64,000 nucleotides of DNA from Candidatus Eisenbergiella merdipullorum (GTDB lineage: Bacteria > Bacillota > Clostridia > Lachnospirales > Lachnospiraceae). The notes beneath the pieces are model-generated. The model did no database searches, had not been told where the DNA came from, and saw nothing but the letters and a program-made list of their open reading frames with translations. The position numbers and the translations under genes were made by a program. The DNA lies in the NCBI GenBank assembly GCA_019118445.1, contig DWYY01000045.1, positions 1-64,000 on the forward strand. The letters run 5' to 3'. This document shows, piece after piece, positions 18,331 to 27,503 of this stretch. Within the stretch, counting starts at the first letter, position 1. Each line of letters starts with the position of its first letter.

Positions 18331-19131
18331 TCAGGCTTTGTCAGCTTTATTATTTTTCTTTCCCAGGAAAGCGGAAATGATCAGCACAGCCGCTCCCAGC
18401 AGCGCTCCCGCAGCCCAGAGCATCACGTTCGACTCATCTCCCGTCTGCGGACCCGTTCCCGTCTGGGATGCGGGCGGAAGGACAACCTGAGCCGGCGGCG
18501 CAGGCACAGCAGGCGTCACCACAGTCTGAACCACGGTCGGGGTGGAGTCGCCGGAGCCGCCTCCGTTTCCTCCGTCGTCAGAAGGATTGGAAGGATTGGC
18601 GGGACGGGAGTAGTGGTTTTGGAAAAGGAACTGTTCCGCCTTCTCTGTACTGTCACTGCGATAGCCGAAGATCATTGCCTTCAGCCCGTCGTTTCCGTCA
18701 TTTACAATCCACACGCCGACATTATAAACTGTCGTATCATATGTAAAATTATTTCTGGGTTCTGCTTCCTGATGAATGGTATAATGGTACTCACCTGGAG
18801 CGTTGTAATAAATTCCCTGAAAATCAGCCGTTTCACCGGCTTTCACCGTGATTTCCTTTACCAGCTTTTCCGTTCCATCCTCATCTGTTACCATAACAGA
18901 GCCATCCGGCATTGGCATGCCTGCCTCTGCTGTCAGAATTACCCTGTATTCATTCCCTTCCGGAATTCCACTGCCGCTTTCCTTTACTGTTGCGCACAGC
19001 TCACCTTTTCCCAGAGTATAATTGTAATCCGCCGCCTGTGCTGTCACAGGCATAACCAATGTCACTCCAAGCAGCGTAAGGAGCAGCAGTTTCCGGATCT
19101 GCCCCAGCTTTTTTTTCATGCTTTTATGCAC
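18331..19131 (-). CDS. Spy0128/FctB-like minor pilin with sortase-signal-like C-terminus
   Basis: Signal peptide; GEYHYTIHQEAEP and FLFQNHY pilin-fold motifs; C-terminal GPQTGD, hydrophobic stretch and KKNNK tail. Confidence 0.75.
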   Translation of the reverse strand: MHKSMKKKLGQIRKLLLLTLLGVTLVMPVTAQAADYNYTLGKGELCATVKESGSGIPEGNEYRVILTAEAGMPMPDGSVMVTDEDGTEKLVKEITVKAGETADFQGIYYNAPGEYHYTIHQEAEPRNNFTYDTTVYNVGVWIVNDGNDGLKAMIFGYRSDSTEKAEQFLFQNHYSRPANPSNPSDDGGNGGGSGDSTPTVVQTVVTPAVPAPPAQVVLPPASQTGTGPQTGDESNVMLWAAGALLGAAVLIISAFLGKKNNKADKA

Positions 19132-19888
19132 CTCCTTCTTGTGCCGTTACCGGTTTCAGCCGCCCATATATCACGACACGGCCGTTCGTTTCCGCTTCGG
19201 CACAGGTTGACAGGCCGATGATCTGATCCTCCGGCTCCGCTCCGATCTCACGGTACTGGACTGCGTTTTCACGGATATATTCCAGAAGGCTTTCCACATT
19301 TCCTTCCTCCTGGGCCGTCGGATTGAACACCCTGCTGTCATAGGCATCGACTTTCAGACAGGCAAATAGCTCAATGCTCCATGTGCCGCCCGGCGCATAC
19401 AGCGTCCCAGTCGTATGCGCGTCAAAAAATGTTTTGTCTGTAAACTCCACAATATCCCCGAACATCCCGCCGTTTTCCATGTGATGGCCGTACAGCAGGA
19501 CATAACTGTCCGAAAAATCTGGACTGTTGGCGCTGTCCAGGAAAATGGAACCGGACAGGGCAAATTCACCATATACATCCTTATTGATGTATTCCATGTT
19601 CGTCTCACCCTGTACCACGGGATAATCGATATGAGTATCGTCTATGGTCACCCATCCCCGCACATCTTCGTTGAGGGCCTGCAACTCCGAAAGGGTCGGA
19701 TTATCCGTCTCCCCGGCTGAAGCAGGCTTGAACTGCAGAAGATCGTTCGAGACAAAAGCGCCCCGGTAAATCATAGCTGTATCCCAGAGGGAATAGCTGC
19801 CGTAAAGAAACATGATTACGATCAGAAGCACCACAATGCCGTTCAGTATTCTGTTTCCGATTCTGGCGCATCTGGCTGCCGTTTCCAT
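19124..19888 (-). CDS. Class B sortase
   Basis: N-terminal TM; DYPVVQGETNMEYI, LLYGHHM catalytic His, GLSTCAEAETNGRVVIYGRL catalytic Cys/Arg. Confidence 0.9.
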   Translation of the reverse strand: METAARCARIGNRILNGIVVLLIVIMFLYGSYSLWDTAMIYRGAFVSNDLLQFKPASAGETDNPTLSELQALNEDVRGWVTIDDTHIDYPVVQGETNMEYINKDVYGEFALSGSIFLDSANSPDFSDSYVLLYGHHMENGGMFGDIVEFTDKTFFDAHTTGTLYAPGGTWSIELFACLKVDAYDSRVFNPTAQEEGNVESLLEYIRENAVQYREIGAEPEDQIIGLSTCAEAETNGRVVIYGRLKPVTAQEGGA

Positions 19889-20014: not shown

Positions 20015-21100
20015 TTAAAAGTTATTTTTTCTTCTACGCAGGAACAAGAATGCAAGACCACCTGCCAGAACTACCATCAGGATGTAGGGGGCAATGTTCA
20101 TAACAATACCTGTTTCAGGAACGCCATTTGTATTTGTATTTATGAAATTCACAACAGGTACCGTACTGGCTTTGGCATCTTCCAATTTCTTCTTTTCTTC
20201 GCCATTCACTGTCGTAGTATAATTGGAATCTTCTGTAGTTTCAGTAACTGTATACGTATCCTCTGCCGAAAGACCATAGACCACAGCGCTATCTCCATCG
20301 GCAAGTACAAATCCCTGAGATATTCCATCAGTAAGAGTATACGAAGTTGTATGCGTTCCACCCTTTTTATTGGTCACCACCATATAGTAATTTTCCGTAG
20401 CGTTTTCATCATTGTCTGAAACAGCTATTGTAAACTCAAATTCCCTGTTCAAGTCACCCATCTTACCTGTAACCTCTTTTGTTATCCTAAGTGACTCTTT
20501 TCCATCCTCAGATCCTTCGGTAATATACTTATTGGTAAATCCATCGCTCTTTGCGCTGCCATTCCACATCTCATATCCGGCAATCTGAAGATCTCCAGTA
20601 GGATTCCCATCCTCGTCCATAACGTTTTCCACATATACGTACAGATCTCTTGATACTCCGTCATAGGTCATTCCATCATAAGTTCCCGAGGCCTCTGCAA
20701 CTATATAATGATAAATACCTGCCTGATCAAATTTATCCGCATTAAAACTGAATCCCTCATTAGAAGTCATTACCACCTTGTTTTTTGCTAATATGTCCTC
20801 ATCAGTTGAAGGTTCAAAATCAATGGTAACTGTACCGCCATTTAAAATAGCATCGCTGATTCCTTTTTCTCCCTTTGCATCCTTATCCCCCTTTGTAACT
20901 GTAAAGGTAAAGGACGTATCTGGAGTAGGAACATTTATTCCCTTTTCAAGCGTTTTCTTAACAAGGACATTGTTTCCTTTTCCTGCACCAATATCTCCAT
21001 CTTCTGCAAATGCCGTCATTCCAAACATGGAGACCATCATTGTTCCTGCCATCAGTGCTGCCGCTATACGGCGGAAATATTTGTTGTGTTTCAGACTCAT
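20015..21100 (-). CDS. Spy0128/FctA-like major pilin
   Basis: Start taken at MSLKHNKYFRRI; signal peptide; YHYIVAEASG, FTNKY, VTGKMGDLNREFEFTI; C-terminal VPETG, TM and RRRKNNF. Confidence 0.88.
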   Translation of the reverse strand: MSLKHNKYFRRIAAALMAGTMMVSMFGMTAFAEDGDIGAGKGNNVLVKKTLEKGINVPTPDTSFTFTVTKGDKDAKGEKGISDAILNGGTVTIDFEPSTDEDILAKNKVVMTSNEGFSFNADKFDQAGIYHYIVAEASGTYDGMTYDGVSRDLYVYVENVMDEDGNPTGDLQIAGYEMWNGSAKSDGFTNKYITEGSEDGKESLRITKEVTGKMGDLNREFEFTIAVSDNDENATENYYMVVTNKKGGTHTTSYTLTDGISQGFVLADGDSAVVYGLSAEDTYTVTETTEDSNYTTTVNGEEKKKLEDAKASTVPVVNFINTNTNGVPETGIVMNIAPYILMVVLAGGLAFLFLRRRKNNF

Positions 21101-21253
21101 AACATTCTTCCTCTCTTTTTCCTGATTTTTTGTTTCTATGTTGGCGGCTTTTGCCGCCTCTATCACAAAGCAAGCCTTCAGGAGTTGCATGAAACGACTT
21201 TTCCCCCGCTGCTCTGTAATATACATGTTAATTGTTCCGGCTTATTTGCCTGT

Positions 21254-21850
21254 TCACAGTTCCGAACGTCGGATGACAGTGATCACCTTTCCTTTAATCT
21301 CCTTTTTCCCCACTGGACCAAAATACCGGCTGTCCCTTGCTCCTTCTCGGTAATCGCAAAGAACGAATACCTGTCCTTCTTCCAGCGTCAACGGATAAAT
21401 CACTTTGCTTTCATATCGGGGAGTACTGTAATAGATATCGCTTTCCGCCACATAACTGCCATTGATCATCAGTCTGGCATCTTCCGTTACCTCAACCGTA
21501 TCTCCGCCCACTGCTACGACACGCCCTGTGTATTGTCTGCCTTCTTTTTCAAATATAATGACATCATCTGCCCGGAGCGTATCTTCCAGCCGATAAAACA
21601 GCATCAGATCTCCTGCACTGATACGGGGTGACATATCGTCATTTCTCATAACGGCAAGACCAAATACCATGCCAAACAGGAGCCACAGCAAAACCACCAG
21701 AAACACAAGTCTCGTAAAAAAGGAGCTGACATCTTCCTGATTTGCGATGCTGCGCCGCCTTATCAGAATCACTTCTTCCGGCGTCTGGATGGCGGGCGGG
21801 CCTTTTCGGCCACCCTGCCTGTGTCCTTTTTTCTTACTCTTCTGTTTCAT
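21254..21850 (-). CDS. Signal peptidase I-like protein (SipA-like, predicted protease-dead)
   Basis: S26 family pattern NDDMSPRISAGDLMLF ... YTGRVVAVGGDTVEV ... YFGPVGKKEIKGKV; start taken at MKQKSKKKGHRQ. Confidence 0.82.
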   Translation of the reverse strand: MKQKSKKKGHRQGGRKGPPAIQTPEEVILIRRRSIANQEDVSSFFTRLVFLVVLLWLLFGMVFGLAVMRNDDMSPRISAGDLMLFYRLEDTLRADDVIIFEKEGRQYTGRVVAVGGDTVEVTEDARLMINGSYVAESDIYYSTPRYESKVIYPLTLEEGQVFVLCDYREGARDSRYFGPVGKKEIKGKVITVIRRSEL

Positions 21851-22085
21851 CACCGGCCTCCCCCGCTTCATCGAGCTGGCTTTCCAGCCGGTCAATCATG
21901 TCATCACGCTCATCGAGCAGTGCCTGAAAATATGTTTCCTGTGTCTCAAAAGCCGCTCTGTAATCTGCCTGCAGCAGTTCAATCTGTTTCCAGACATCGG
22001 CTTCATCCACACCGCCGATCAGTTTTTTTCGGAAATGCAGCTTTGTTAGCTGTCCCGCGATTTCTTCCATGCTCTTTGCTGCCAT
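21834..22085 (-). CDS. 83-aa hypothetical coiled-coil protein in the pilus operon
   Basis: ORF with FRKKLIGGVDEADVWKQIELLQADYRAAF; overlaps the next gene's start by 17 bp. Confidence 0.65.
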   Translation of the reverse strand: MAAKSMEEIAGQLTKLHFRKKLIGGVDEADVWKQIELLQADYRAAFETQETYFQALLDERDDMIDRLESQLDEAGEAGDETEE

Positions 22086-22139: not shown

Positions 22140-25100
22140 TCAGCGGAAACGGTTTCTGCGGGATGCTCTGTTTCTTACCATCAATGTAAATCCAAATGTC
22201 GCAGCAACAGAGAACAACATCATCATGAAGGTTGCTCCGGTATTGTCTGTGATGCCTGTATCAGGTACCTCATCCGTTTTGTCATTGCGGAAGGTAACGG
22301 TTATATCCTCCTCGCCTACTGTTATGTCGAAAGAATTTCCCTGCTTTTCACCTTCTCCATTGTCAACATAGGTGGTATATCCGTCTGCAGATTCTTCTGT
22401 AATGACCAGATACTGGCCTGCTTCCAGATTATCAATTTCATAACTTTCATCATCCGACAATGTAAAATGAACTGCTTCTCCTGTCGGGCTTCCATCTTTC
22501 CGGTCATAAATCTGGTAGCTGAAGCTGAAGACCTGATCCAGTTCACCCATATTTCCGGTTACCTGCTTTGTTACGGTAACCTTTACAGCCTTAACCCACT
22601 GCGCATAGAGAACATTATTTTTCGGATTTATCGTATCCACCTGGATGATATCTCTAGGCTGGAGAAGTTTTCCCTTACCGTCAGCATCTGTAGTCCAGCC
22701 AGCGAATGTATATCCTTCTCTATGGATATTTTGTGGTTTGATCTCATATTGCTCGTTTGGAGTTGCGATATCTTCCGTTATTGCCTCATTTCCATCTTCG
22801 TCAGTTCCACCGTTAAAATTATAGGTAAGTGACGTTTCGCGAACAGGAGCCCATTTTGCTGTCAGGGTCACATTTTCTGCAGGCATGGTATACCAGTCGC
22901 CCGGATAATACTCGTTTCCGTCTTCATCCACCCAGCAGACAAAACCATAGTATTCCGCTGGTGGAGTCCAGCTTTCAGGAACAGTCAAGAGCTTCGCGCT
23001 GGCACCTTCTGCATACCTTTCCAAATCAGATACTGATTCACCATTTCCATCTCCTGGAATATAAGTCAATGTGTATTGTGCATCACTGATCCATTGAGCG
23101 AAAAGTGTCATATTTTCCACAACCTGGGTGCTGAAATTGAAAGGTGTTCCATCCGATCTTCTCCATCCTGCAAAAGTATATCCCTCACGTTTCGGATCCT
23201 CAGGTTTCTGAACAGTTCCATTTTTCTCTATTACCTGAGCATCATATTGTGCAGAATCCTCCTGTTCTCCGAGGCTCGCTCCGTTCAGATCAAAAGTAAC
23301 TGTATAGGATACCGGCACCCATTTGGCATATAAAGGGAAATTTCCGGCCGGCATAGTTTTTCCGGCAAATTCATAGGCATCTCCCTCTAATAGCTCATTG
23401 GTATACCATCCTGCGAAGGTGTAATCTTCTTTTCCTGCAGGAGCAGTCGGTGTATATCCAGCCTTACTAATATCAGCTTCATAGAGGAATGTCTTTTCTT
23501 CGTCCACCTCTCCTTCGTTAATAAACTGAATGGTATATTCATTTCTGTCATAGTAGAATTTCCATCCATATGTATTCCGCATGCCCTGAAAGGCTTTTGC
23601 CTGTGAACCTACATCTGCACTGCTATCCCAATTAACAGTAAATCCTTTGATACTATAGTAGTCATTTTCAGTTGTAGTCCACCCTGTATTGTCACTCTTA
23701 AATTCATCCGTATGATCTAGATTGTATCTTCCATCCAATCCTTCCAGATAAAATTCTGTCCGGATTGTATATTTACCCTGTTGATCTACATAGTAAAACT
23801 CATCTCCGTTTATGGGCATTTCTCCTATGCCAGACTGATATATTCTATTCCCCCCATTGGATTCACCTGTCCACCATTGGCTGGAATAGCTGGTACTCAA
23901 ATCAGTTCTTCGGCTGGGCCATAGATTGCTGATATCCTGTCCATATTTTGCAGTAATTGCCAGCTCTGTGATCTCATCGCGCCCTCCTGCTTCTACATAA
24001 ATATAGGAACCATTTCCCTGACCAACATATTCATAACGTCCCCAAATGATGCCTACATAGTTATAATCACCATTTCCCAAACCGACATACTGATATCCGG
24101 CTTCTGCATATTCTTGATAGAATTTTACTTCATAGATGTTACGATCATAATAAACATGTACAACTGTTGTTCCATCATTTTTTATCCGTTGTTGCACAAT
24201 CTGTCTACCTTCATCAGTACTTAATGAAAAGCCTGCATATTTGTCACTTTCAGCAGTGACATTGGTCATGGTTCCCACTGTTCCCTGTCTGATTTCACTA
24301 TCCGCTAGGGAATATCCTTCATCATCCGCATTTTCCTGCCAATAGATAATCCGGTAATTTACTTCTCCCGGAATCCACTTAGCATACAGAGTTATACTTT
24401 CCTGCAGCGTACTTCCAAATTCAAATCTATTCTCACAGGAGCTGTCCGTAAACCAACCGGAAAATTCATATCCTGTATATGTCGGTGCGTCAGGTTCTAC
24501 TGTTTTTTCTCCGGTCCGTACATAAACCGGATCTACAACCGAACCTCCCTGAGAGTCAAAAGTCATCCAATGTACATCAACAATTACCGGATATAAAACA
24601 AGATCACTTCCATCCTGCGGAATTGTTATTTCTTCATCCGGCTTTTCTGCATTTCGTTCCACAGACCAGCCTAAAAAGGCCTTGTTATCTTCTGTCGCAA
24701 GCTGTATCTTTTCCGTTTCAACCACTGCGCCAATCTGATCATATCTCTGTGTGGCAAGAATTTTACTTGTCTCATCATTTCCTGCCTTATAAAAAACGTA
24801 ATATACCTTTTCCGTATATCTGGCATACAGATTGGTCGTCCTATTCCCTTCTAACGCTCCTTCTTCTTGGCCGAAGTTCGTAAACTCAGAATCATCTTCA
24901 CCAAACCATCCTTCAAAGATATACCCGTTTCTTTCCGGTGTTTCAGGTACATTCAAAGTCTCCCCGGCAGAAAGGATCTGCTTATTCCATTCTTCCTGTT
25001 CCCCATCTCCATTTGCGTCTGCATAGAACACATATGTATGCGTAAAGTGCTCATCCTCGTCGCCTGGCGTAGTTACCACATAAACGGAAAAACTGTTCGC

Positions 25101-26012
25101 ATCAAATACCACCGCGTTATTTTCGGTCTGTACGGAAGATACCTCTTCCGGTGATGCGCTTTCGTTTTCCATGTGATAAACAGATACTTCTTCGCTTTGC
25201 TGCAGAGCTTCGCGCACTGCTGTGTTCTCAATCTTTACCTGAATCGCGCCATCCCGCGGCTGATATACCTCACCTTCCGGATCAAAGATCGTAATATCAT
25301 ATGCTGCCAGCACGACTTCATCATCAATCTGGACGTTCACCGGATAGGCTTTTACTTTTGCCCCCTCCGGCATAACTCCTTTCAACGTAATCGTAGTCCC
25401 TGAGGCATTTCTTGAATAAGAAGAATTCTCAAAGACCTCTGCAGCCAGAGTCTGTTTCTTCAGAACCATCTCTGCTTTGGTTTCTCCCAAAGTAGTCTCT
25501 TCCGTCAAAGTCTCCGTCTCCATTTCGGTAGTCTCCTCCGTCAGAGTTTCGGTCTCCTCCTCCGTCGTTTCTTCCGTTGCATCCTCAGTTGTTTCCTCGC
25601 TCTCAGAAGCAGTCTCGGTCGTACCTTCTGTCGTGCTTTCGGTCTCCGTACTGCTTTCTGTCGGTGCAGAACTGCTTTCCAGCACAGAACTTTCCGCAGT
25701 ACTGCTCTCTGTGGATGAAGGCTCCTGCTTGTCCGTCTCACCAGATCCACCGTTCTCTCCGCTGCCGCCGTTTCCGGTCTGCCCTTCCGGCTCGGCAGGC
25801 TGTTCTTCGCTGACCGGTTCACTTGGCGCTTCATTGTTCTGGTCCGAAACTGCCGATCCCGCGCTCTGCGTTGCAGGCTGAGACTGTGTTTCCACAGCAG
25901 TCTCCTGCGCAGTACTCTCCGCCAGCACGGTCAGCCTTCCGGTTCCTGCTGCCGACATCACCAGAGCAAACGCCAATAGGAACGCCATGATTTTTCTTAC
26001 TCTTCTCCGCAT
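22140..26012 (-). CDS. Large sortase-anchored surface adhesin with InlB_B (Listeria-Bacteroides) repeats
   Basis: Signal peptide; Ser/Thr/Glu-rich stalk; multiple Y.FAGW...LYAKW repeats; C-terminal VTGNMGELDQVFSFSY pilin-like domain and VPDTG anchor. Confidence 0.9.
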   Translation of the reverse strand: MRRRVRKIMAFLLAFALVMSAAGTGRLTVLAESTAQETAVETQSQPATQSAGSAVSDQNNEAPSEPVSEEQPAEPEGQTGNGGSGENGGSGETDKQEPSSTESSTAESSVLESSSAPTESSTETESTTEGTTETASESEETTEDATEETTEEETETLTEETTEMETETLTEETTLGETKAEMVLKKQTLAAEVFENSSYSRNASGTTITLKGVMPEGAKVKAYPVNVQIDDEVVLAAYDITIFDPEGEVYQPRDGAIQVKIENTAVREALQQSEEVSVYHMENESASPEEVSSVQTENNAVVFDANSFSVYVVTTPGDEDEHFTHTYVFYADANGDGEQEEWNKQILSAGETLNVPETPERNGYIFEGWFGEDDSEFTNFGQEEGALEGNRTTNLYARYTEKVYYVFYKAGNDETSKILATQRYDQIGAVVETEKIQLATEDNKAFLGWSVERNAEKPDEEITIPQDGSDLVLYPVIVDVHWMTFDSQGGSVVDPVYVRTGEKTVEPDAPTYTGYEFSGWFTDSSCENRFEFGSTLQESITLYAKWIPGEVNYRIIYWQENADDEGYSLADSEIRQGTVGTMTNVTAESDKYAGFSLSTDEGRQIVQQRIKNDGTTVVHVYYDRNIYEVKFYQEYAEAGYQYVGLGNGDYNYVGIIWGRYEYVGQGNGSYIYVEAGGRDEITELAITAKYGQDISNLWPSRRTDLSTSYSSQWWTGESNGGNRIYQSGIGEMPINGDEFYYVDQQGKYTIRTEFYLEGLDGRYNLDHTDEFKSDNTGWTTTENDYYSIKGFTVNWDSSADVGSQAKAFQGMRNTYGWKFYYDRNEYTIQFINEGEVDEEKTFLYEADISKAGYTPTAPAGKEDYTFAGWYTNELLEGDAYEFAGKTMPAGNFPLYAKWVPVSYTVTFDLNGASLGEQEDSAQYDAQVIEKNGTVQKPEDPKREGYTFAGWRRSDGTPFNFSTQVVENMTLFAQWISDAQYTLTYIPGDGNGESVSDLERYAEGASAKLLTVPESWTPPAEYYGFVCWVDEDGNEYYPGDWYTMPAENVTLTAKWAPVRETSLTYNFNGGTDEDGNEAITEDIATPNEQYEIKPQNIHREGYTFAGWTTDADGKGKLLQPRDIIQVDTINPKNNVLYAQWVKAVKVTVTKQVTGNMGELDQVFSFSYQIYDRKDGSPTGEAVHFTLSDDESYEIDNLEAGQYLVITEESADGYTTYVDNGEGEKQGNSFDITVGEEDITVTFRNDKTDEVPDTGITDNTGATFMMMLFSVAATFGFTLMVRNRASRRNRFR

Positions 26013-26076: not shown

Positions 26077-26100
26077 ACCTCATAATGTTTATTATGCGGT
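26077..26100. repeat. Left inverted repeat of putative invertible promoter (IRL)
   Basis: ACCTCATAATGTTTATTATGCGGT; 23/24 identical to the reverse complement of 26442-26465. Confidence 0.95.
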
Positions 26101-26187
26101 CCGGCCGCTCCCTGAAAGCTATCAGACAGAGAGGCTGCAGGCACTTTTCTTTTCGTCAGACGCTCCTATGGAAGCATTCTGACGTAA

Positions 26188-26269
26188 AACCGAAAATTCT
26201 GCGCATAATAAAAAAGACCACGGGCGGCCATTCCCGATGGTCTTGTTGTCATGCGCAGAATTTTCGGTT
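26188..26269. repeat. 19-bp perfect inverted repeat inside the invertible segment
   Basis: AACCGAAAATTCTGCGCAT (26188-26206) and ATGCGCAGAATTTTCGGTT (26251-26269). Confidence 0.95.
26205..26244 (-). terminator. Intrinsic terminator reading toward the pilus operon in current orientation
   Basis: Minus strand AAGACCATCGGGAATGGCCGCCCGTGGTCTTTTTTATTA. Confidence 0.8.
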
Positions 26270-26379
26270 GTTTTCCATCGCTTCCCTTTTCAGAATACTT
26301 TTTTCTGCTTTTTGAGCTGTTTTTTCATTTTCCCGTATAATTTCTGCGGATCTGGAGCCATTTTTGGCCCGGAGAGAGA

Positions 26380-26408
26380 TTGACATTTGCCTGCAGTGCG
26401 AGTATAAT
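26380..26408 (+). promoter_or_regulatory. Perfect consensus sigma-A promoter
   Basis: TTGACA (26380-26385), 17-bp spacer, TATAAT (26403-26408). Confidence 0.9.
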
Positions 26409-26441
26409 TTTTTCAAGTTCAGCGATATGTACTTTCCGGTT

Positions 26442-26465
26442 ACCGCATAATAAACATTATGCGGT
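26442..26465. repeat. Right inverted repeat of putative invertible promoter (IRR)
   Basis: ACCGCATAATAAACATTATGCGGT; itself a perfect 10-bp palindrome around AAAC. Confidence 0.95.
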
Positions 26466-27317
26466 CTTTTTTTCATCCAGAAGAAGGCCGAGCCTCTCAA
26501 TCTGCCGTGCCTGCTCCTTTCCGCTCGACATCGTATAGATCCTCGTCGTGTTGATGCTCGAATGTCCCAGCAGATCGGCCAGGTGCGTGATATCTTTCTC
26601 CATCTCGTAGTAGGTGCACGCAAACAGATGCCTCAGGTTATGCGGGAAGATCTTCCCCTTCTCCACTCCCGCTTCCGCGCTGAGCTTCTTCATCTCATGC
26701 AGGATGTTGCTCCGGTCCATGGGGCGGCCGCTTCTGGTCACAAAGATGCTTCCTGTTCTGATCCCCTTCTGCACTGCGTAGCCAAGAAGGCTCTCACACA
26801 GCGCTGGCGGCAGCAACACCGTCCGTGTCTTTCCCTTCAGGCGCACCACCGCACTCCCGCGTTTTGCCGCCTCCACCGTGATGAACGGCAGCTCACTGAT
26901 CCGGATTCCTGTAGCGCAGAGGGTCTGCATCAGATAGCTCAGCCTCTTTTTTCCCAATCTTTCGGCCGCATCCACAAGGTGAAAATATTCTTCCCTGGAA
27001 AGCTCCTTCTCCTGACTGCGGAATGCCTCCCTCTGCACCCGCACCAGCTTTACCAGGCAGTCGTACCAGCCCTGTTCTTTAAAAAAACGGTTCAGGGCGG
27101 CAAGCATGGAATTCACGCTGCTGACTGCATAGCGCTCCAGAAGCCTTTCCTTATAGCCGATCACGATCGTCTTGTTCACTGCGCCCGACTTTCCCAGCCA
27201 GTGAAGAAAGGCGCGCAGGTCACGCCCGTATTTGTCTATCGTTCTTTTGCTTTTTTCTTCCTCCGCCAGCTTCTGCCGGAACTGCTCCAGCTGTGTCTCA
27301 TTCATGAAATGGTCCAT
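26457..27317 (-). CDS. Tyrosine recombinase, putative invertase of the adjacent promoter
   Basis: R-K-HxxR-H-Y set: ATGIRISEL, RLKGKTRT, HNLRHLF, LLGHSSINTTRIYT; start taken at MDHFMNETQ after GGAAGGAAGGAGAG; stop lies inside IRR. Confidence 0.9.
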   Translation of the reverse strand: MDHFMNETQLEQFRQKLAEEEKSKRTIDKYGRDLRAFLHWLGKSGAVNKTIVIGYKERLLERYAVSSVNSMLAALNRFFKEQGWYDCLVKLVRVQREAFRSQEKELSREEYFHLVDAAERLGKKRLSYLMQTLCATGIRISELPFITVEAAKRGSAVVRLKGKTRTVLLPPALCESLLGYAVQKGIRTGSIFVTRSGRPMDRSNILHEMKKLSAEAGVEKGKIFPHNLRHLFACTYYEMEKDITHLADLLGHSSINTTRIYTMSSGKEQARQIERLGLLLDEKKTA

Positions 27318-27503
27318 TCTTCCCTCTCTCCTTCCTTCCGGGTTATTGTTATTGGAATGCCCGGCTCCGCATTTTTTATACATGATCATAAAAAGTATAC
27401 AACTTTTTCCTTTCCGGACATATCAGGCATGTGAAAAAATTCATTGCCCTTTCCGCACACATGGGCTATCATGAAAGAGAAAACTTATGAAAGGGGATTT
27501 TTT

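Follow-up and report, generated by a model that had tools for sequence, protein, structure and literature searches.

A SipA-type signal peptidase homolog without a catalytic dyad in a Lachnospiraceae pilus operon and its putative DivIVA/GpsB-like neighbor

Introduction

What does a signal peptidase homolog contribute to a pilus operon once its catalytic Ser-Lys dyad is gone? The question is raised by an open reading frame (ORF) at 21254-21850 in a contig of Candidatus Eisenbergiella merdipullorum (GCA_019118445.1, contig DWYY01000045.1), of which positions 1-64,000 were analyzed; this 64,000-nucleotide stretch is called the window, and all coordinates refer to it. A first-pass annotation had proposed, by likeness to SipA of Streptococcus pyogenes, that the product is a pilus assembly factor and not a protease. 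SipA of S. pyogenes is required for pilus polymerization, and no peptidase activity was detected for it (PMC4049620). Its role has been an open question since 2008 (Zahner and Scott, cited in PMC3019223), and a review describes the partners of SipA as unclear and the spatial organization of pilus assembly as poorly understood (PMC7900414). Comparison of sequences, trees, and gene neighborhoods makes it very likely that the window protein is a nonenzymatic pilus assembly factor of the SipA type.

Identity of the ORF and Loss of the Dyad

The frame is open on the minus strand and encodes 198 amino acids (aa) from an ATG at 21850, with an in-frame TTG 45 nucleotides (nt) upstream. Its product consists of a basic cytosolic tail that includes TPEEVILIRRR, one transmembrane helix, an S26 domain, and a C-terminal Arg194-Arg195. 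Assignment to family S26 is far beyond chance, with 75.1 bits against Pfam Peptidase_S26 (cut-off 22.9) and 95.6 bits against TIGR02227 (cut-off 47). The protein shares its fold, single membrane anchor, and recognizable boxes B-E with the type I signal peptidases LepB, SipS, and SpsB, but differs from them in having lost the Ser-Lys dyad and the Gly/Asn/Ser of box E. Its nearest relatives of solved structure are S. pyogenes SipA entries 4n31 (E = 2.8e-27, 99 bits) and 4k8w (E = 7e-25, 91 bits), whereas the best true signal peptidase reaches E = 5e-7 and 33 bits. An AlphaFold model made from three input sequences is poor (predicted local distance difference test, pLDDT, of 58); with this low-confidence model, the top three Foldseek matches are SipA and include 4n31 and 4k8w.

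The sequence is DMSP at residues 72-75 and YTGRVVAVGGD at residues 107-117. When the protein is aligned residue by residue to 4n31, Asp72 falls on SipA Asp48 and Gly109 on SipA Gly85, the positions of Ser90 and Lys145 in Escherichia coli signal peptidase (PMC4049620), which bears out the earlier reading of Asp in place of Ser and Gly in place of Lys. The alignment was also inspected for another Ser or Lys in the active site, and no relocated dyad was seen. Ser74 of DMSP lacks conservation, with Phe, Ile, Ala, or Tyr in its place in relatives, and Tyr107 of the window protein stands where SipA has Lys83, the residue formerly suspected as a substitute base.

Distribution and Single Origin of Dyad-Less SipA

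A survey profile built from five relatives has strong matches in 78 of 397 Lachnospiraceae genomes and in five of 399 genomes sampled across the phylum, counts that include dyad-intact S26 relatives. A separate scan of genome contigs gave just two close relatives, and a search of a plasmid collection gave ordinary signal peptidases only. About 65 neighborhoods were read (loci carry L numbers), yielding 71 distinct S26 proteins, 52 of them dyad-lacking and 19 dyad-intact. SipA is common in gut Lachnospiraceae and no oddity of streptococci. A sortase gene lies on the same strand within 3 kb at 50 of the 52 dyad-lacking loci and at none of the 19 dyad-intact loci (Fisher P = 2e-15); relatedness of loci inflates such P values, yet the contrast is nearly complete. 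The two exceptions are L033, where the end of the contig cuts the locus, and the orphan L082. All 22 sortases checked at dyad-lacking loci match the class B model TIGR03064, and none among them belongs to another class.

Together with S. pyogenes SipA, the dyad-lacking Lachnospiraceae homologs form a set of 53 sequences in which active-site and fold positions had different fates. The Ser position holds Asp in 27 and otherwise Ser, Ala, Gly, Thr, Glu, Arg, Gln, or Asn, nine residue types in all; the Lys position holds Gly in 40, Arg, Ser, Asp, or Gln in the remainder, and Lys in none. Because the Asp/Gly pair recurs in 26 of 53 members, S. pyogenes SipA included, and Lys is absent from every one, a sequencing accident cannot account for the substitution. 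The pair is the commonest state, but it does not define SipA; what is constant is the loss of Lys together with decay at other active-site positions (Gly165, Asn167, and Ser171). Fold positions Asp166, Arg168, Asp173-Ser174-Arg175, and Gly178 are retained, a pattern that fits a protein whose fold was kept while catalysis was lost. C-terminal Arg194 is present in 53 of 53 dyad-lacking sequences compared with seven of 37 dyad-intact relatives. Attention therefore shifts from the variable Asp/Gly pair to conserved features specific to SipA, such as Arg194.

These patterns bear on the idea that the protein is an active peptidase with an unorthodox site, based on Asp or on another Ser or Lys, that processes pilins. 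Cleft and fold are retained, and about half of the family has Asp where the nucleophile would be, both of which speak for it. However, the Ser position varies freely, the family has no conserved Lys or Ser that could serve instead, and the supporting residues Gly165, Asn167, and Ser171 have decayed as well. Moreover, D61A and D61S changes in M1/T1 SipA of S. pyogenes, at a residue not conserved in SipA of other species, left pilus polymerization unaffected (PMC4049620), and the Eisenbergiella genome retains two intact signal peptidases. We regard an active enzyme as very improbable. The D61A and D61S result also means that reverting the dyad (D-to-S) would be uninformative about the pilus role.

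Dyad-lacking sequences share one origin. In a first tree, computed with the two dyad columns removed, all 53 group together, and their sister group, with moderate support, consists of dyad-intact proteins from L105, L109, L119 (two), L122 (two), L125, and L127. In a second tree, from which the box E columns were removed as well, the 53 sequences including 4n31 lie on one side of a single branch (support 100/95; 200 of 200 bootstrap trees). The Lachnospiraceae homologs and S. pyogenes SipA thus have a single origin, and this one branch tells against many separate losses of the dyad. The proposal that the ORF is a pseudogene in decay, derived from a pilus-associated signal peptidase, can also be set aside. 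Lost catalytic residues could be expected of a pseudogene, but the frame is open, the same loss of single origin is found at 52 loci, Arg194 is invariant, and both the fold residues and the order of the operon are conserved. Such conservation across genera refutes this proposal, to which we give next to no credence.

The Pilus Operon

The window gene stands in an operon whose members are all on the minus strand, in the order tip pilin, 83-aa ORF, sipA, backbone pilin, class B sortase, and basal pilin (table 1). The streptococcal order of tip pilin, sipA, backbone pilin, class B sortase, and basal pilin is repeated here. The sortase scores 200.9 bits against TIGR03064 (cut-off 153.75), and its matches to 4y4q and 3psq reach 177 and 174 bits compared with at most 111 bits for other sortase B chains. 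Among the pilins, the backbone subunit is nearest to the T-antigens of S. pyogenes and the small one to FctB.

Table 1. Features of the pilus locus in window coordinates
Feature	Position	Strand	Basis
SipA-type signal peptidase homolog without Ser-Lys dyad	21254..21850	-	Profile, structure-relative, tree, and family evidence
83-aa small protein, DivIVA/GpsB-like (suggestive); relatives adjoin S26 genes, two in-frame SipA fusions	21834..22085	-	Profile, adjacency, model
Large tip pilin/adhesin with List_Bact repeats and DUF7601, sorting motif VPDTG	22140..26012	-	Profile matches, neighborhood comparison
Backbone pilin, FctA-type (Spy0128-like isopeptide domain, DUF7601), sorting motif VPETG	20015..21226	-	Profile, nearest relatives
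Class B sortase; nearest solved 4y4q (SrtB family) and S. pyogenes Spy0129 (3psq)	19124..19888	-	TIGR03064, PDB
Basal/anchor pilin, small, FctB-like with FctA-domain, sorting motif GPQTG	18331..19131	-	Profile, nearest relatives
Putative invertible promoter, 24-nt inverted repeats at 26077-26100 and 26442-26465	26077..26465	.	Repeats, promoter match, recombinase
Tyrosine recombinase, probable invertase for the promoter	26457..27389	-	Profile matches, co-occurrence with repeats

The closest known system is that of S. pyogenes FCT-2/3/4 (SipA/LepA, 4n31 and 4k8w; PMC4049620), which resembles the window in the S26 fold, the Asp/Gly dyad positions, the branch of the tree, and the order of its genes, among them those for FctA-type pilins and a class B sortase. 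Unlike it, the window has a basic tail of VIxxRR type on its SipA homolog, an overlapping DivIVA/GpsB-like gene, and a putative invertible promoter. The pilus operon of Clostridium perfringens VR-10B has the same gene set in a clostridial host (CnaA, FimA, FimB, a "signal peptidase," and a class B sortase); the likeness is one of gene set, and the publication does no more than name the peptidase-like protein (PMC8088525). Sequence, tree, gene order, and sortase class thus converge on the SipA-like identity suggested at first pass, and the pilus context that came with it finds support in the operon and its class B sortase. A role in pilus assembly is what we infer from these comparisons.

A Small Neighbor That Adjoins S26 Genes

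The 83-aa ORF and the start of sipA overlap by 17 nt. In many loci a relative of the small protein is encoded immediately before SipA, and relatives also lie upstream of dyad-intact S26 genes of the sister group. A profile search blind to neighborhood found 29 matches in 27 of 397 genomes, and for 25 of the 29 an S26 gene is no more than about 430 nt away, although the profile was built from S26 neighbors and hence leans toward an S26-linked subfamily. In two loci, L073 (8073-8780, minus strand) and L089 (8064-8780, minus strand), the small protein is fused in frame to the N-terminus of a dyad-less SipA; a ribosome-binding site precedes the fused start in both, and the L089 fusion has no internal start codon over residues 1-101.

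These observations bear on the alternative that SipA acts as in streptococci, as a dyad-less chaperone or scaffold for the class B sortase, and has no relation to the small protein encoded upstream, a passenger of the operon. In S. pyogenes, SipA functions although no cytosolic partner is known for it (PMC4049620), and the small protein is missing from 30 of the 52 dyad-lacking loci. A passenger would not be expected to be an S26 neighbor in 25 of 29 cases or to be fused to SipA twice, nor to accompany dyad-intact S26 genes outside pilus operons. On balance we hold the passenger explanation to be unlikely, though it deserves far more weight than an active enzyme.

Is the neighbor a member of the DivIVA/GpsB group? 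Relatives of the 83-aa protein share the motif F-(R/K)-K..GG-V-x-E-x-D-V-W..I..L...Y, which resembles the N-terminal motif of DivIVA/GpsB, and its model (pLDDT 78) has a helix at 6-14, a bridge at 20/26, and a helix at 28-79, a topology that fits the N-terminal domain of these proteins. The short helix, hairpin, and long helix, the F-(R/K)-K..GG-V-x-E-x-D-V motif, and the arginine-rich, membrane-proximal tail of the putative client are all reminiscent of GpsB/DivIVA adaptors (PMC6335420). Homology was examined with Pfam, NCBIfam, a PDB profile, hhalign, and Foldseek, and the L073 fusion has a DivIVA match (E = 0.0025) in the expected region. Several results weigh against kinship. The window protein does not match DivIVA in Pfam even at E-values up to 10 and falls below family cut-offs; hhalign comparison of its family with DivIVA gives weak E-values of 0.0045 to 0.067; among the adjacent relatives checked, just one, in L119, passes the Pfam DivIVA cut-off (36.6 bits versus 28); and Foldseek with the 83-aa model returns nothing significant, GpsB ranking second at E = 8.5. 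The best known GpsB clients are peptidoglycan synthases and not signal peptidase homologs. We treat the kinship as suggestive.

A Possible Adaptor for SipA

Dyad-lacking SipA proteins that have the partner carry a basic cytosolic tail in which a motif of the type (E/S/T)xx(V/I)(I/L)xx(R/K)(R/K) immediately precedes the membrane helix. Across the 52 dyad-lacking loci, motif and partner occur together in 20, the partner alone in two (L082, with a variant motif, and the L089 fusion), the motif alone in none, and neither in 30. GpsB binds cell wall enzymes by their cytosolic tails, at membrane-proximal SRxxR(R/K) arginine motifs (PMC6335420).

We propose that the SipA homolog is a membrane-anchored, nonenzymatic helper of the class B sortase that polymerizes an FctA-type pilus. 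Pilin signal peptides would most likely be cut by the two dyad-intact signal peptidases of the genome, and the peptidase fold and cleft inherited by SipA would hold pilin precursors, or their sorting signals, for the sortase. The basic tail, with its membrane-adjacent motif around VIxxRR, would be held by the 83-aa protein, which may gather SipA, and thereby the sortase and pilins, at a particular site on the membrane. This account of a catalytically dead member of the SipA family is, taken as a whole and with the adaptor step included, the explanation we consider probable. Its most specific part, binding of the tail by the small protein to choose the assembly site, has GpsB as its natural model, and we put its chances slightly below even.

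Several points count against this explanation, besides the weak kinship of the 83-aa protein to DivIVA. The tail motif was defined after inspection of the sequences, and once the tree is taken into account its link to the partner, though it points the expected way (5.2 pairs for and 1.0 against), lacks significance (P about 0.2). Pull-downs found no contact of SipA with pilin or sortase (PMC4049620). The partner is absent from about 30 of 52 dyad-lacking loci and from S. pyogenes as published, and therefore positioning by a partner cannot be a general function of SipA. Nevertheless, a partner gene, two fusions, and a tail motif linked to the partner amount to a specific and directly testable hypothesis for SipA function. 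A search of open-access literature yielded no link between DivIVA-like proteins and SipA or class B sortase pili.

Because dyad-intact sister genes carry the adaptor too, a module of an adaptor and an S26-fold membrane protein could be older than the loss of catalysis. The module may later have been recruited to class B sortase pili, the dead peptidase becoming a client through which a marker of cell position chooses the site of the pilus. We offer this extension more tentatively than the tail binding.

Other arrangements of these genes were also observed. In L127 (4578-11628, minus strand), a pilus locus contains a dyad-intact S26 gene after a gene for a DivIVA-like coiled-coil protein, plus a dyad-less SipA without the tail motif, which looks like a duplication with divided roles. 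In L082 (7776-8643, plus strand), a DivIVA-like gene and a dyad-less SipA of Asp/Gly type form an orphan pair upstream of genes resembling an ATP synthase operon, and neither a sortase nor a pilin is encoded within 8 kb. DivIVA-like genes directly precede dyad-intact S26 genes outside pilus operons in L035, L105, L109, and L119, and in each of the last three, the gene after one such S26 gene encodes an apparently secreted protein.

A Putative Invertible Promoter

Between the inverted repeats upstream of the operon lies a perfect TTGACA-17-TATAAT sequence (26380-26408, plus strand) that is directed away from the operon, an OFF orientation. Eight further loci have such repeats upstream of the start of the tip pilin gene (L004 and L034 are the same locus), and homologs of the recombinase occur at nine of nine repeat-bearing loci and at no other dyad-lacking locus. 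Compared between species, the promoter-like sequence is OFF in the window, L004, L032, L033, and L097, and ON in L071. The arrangement looks like phase variation of the pilus operon by promoter inversion, a known kind of switch.

Other S26 Genes in the Survey

Dyad-intact S26 genes lie beside clusters resembling type IV pilus genes in L117 and L120. One genome (G184; L122 and L125) has eight strong S26 matches; of these, three were examined, and all are dyad-intact with long, basic tails at the N-terminus. In L012 (1459-2226, minus strand) and L013 (1483-2022, plus strand), S26 proteins outside the SipA branch have Ser at the Lys position, and therefore other signal peptidase homologs without Lys exist.
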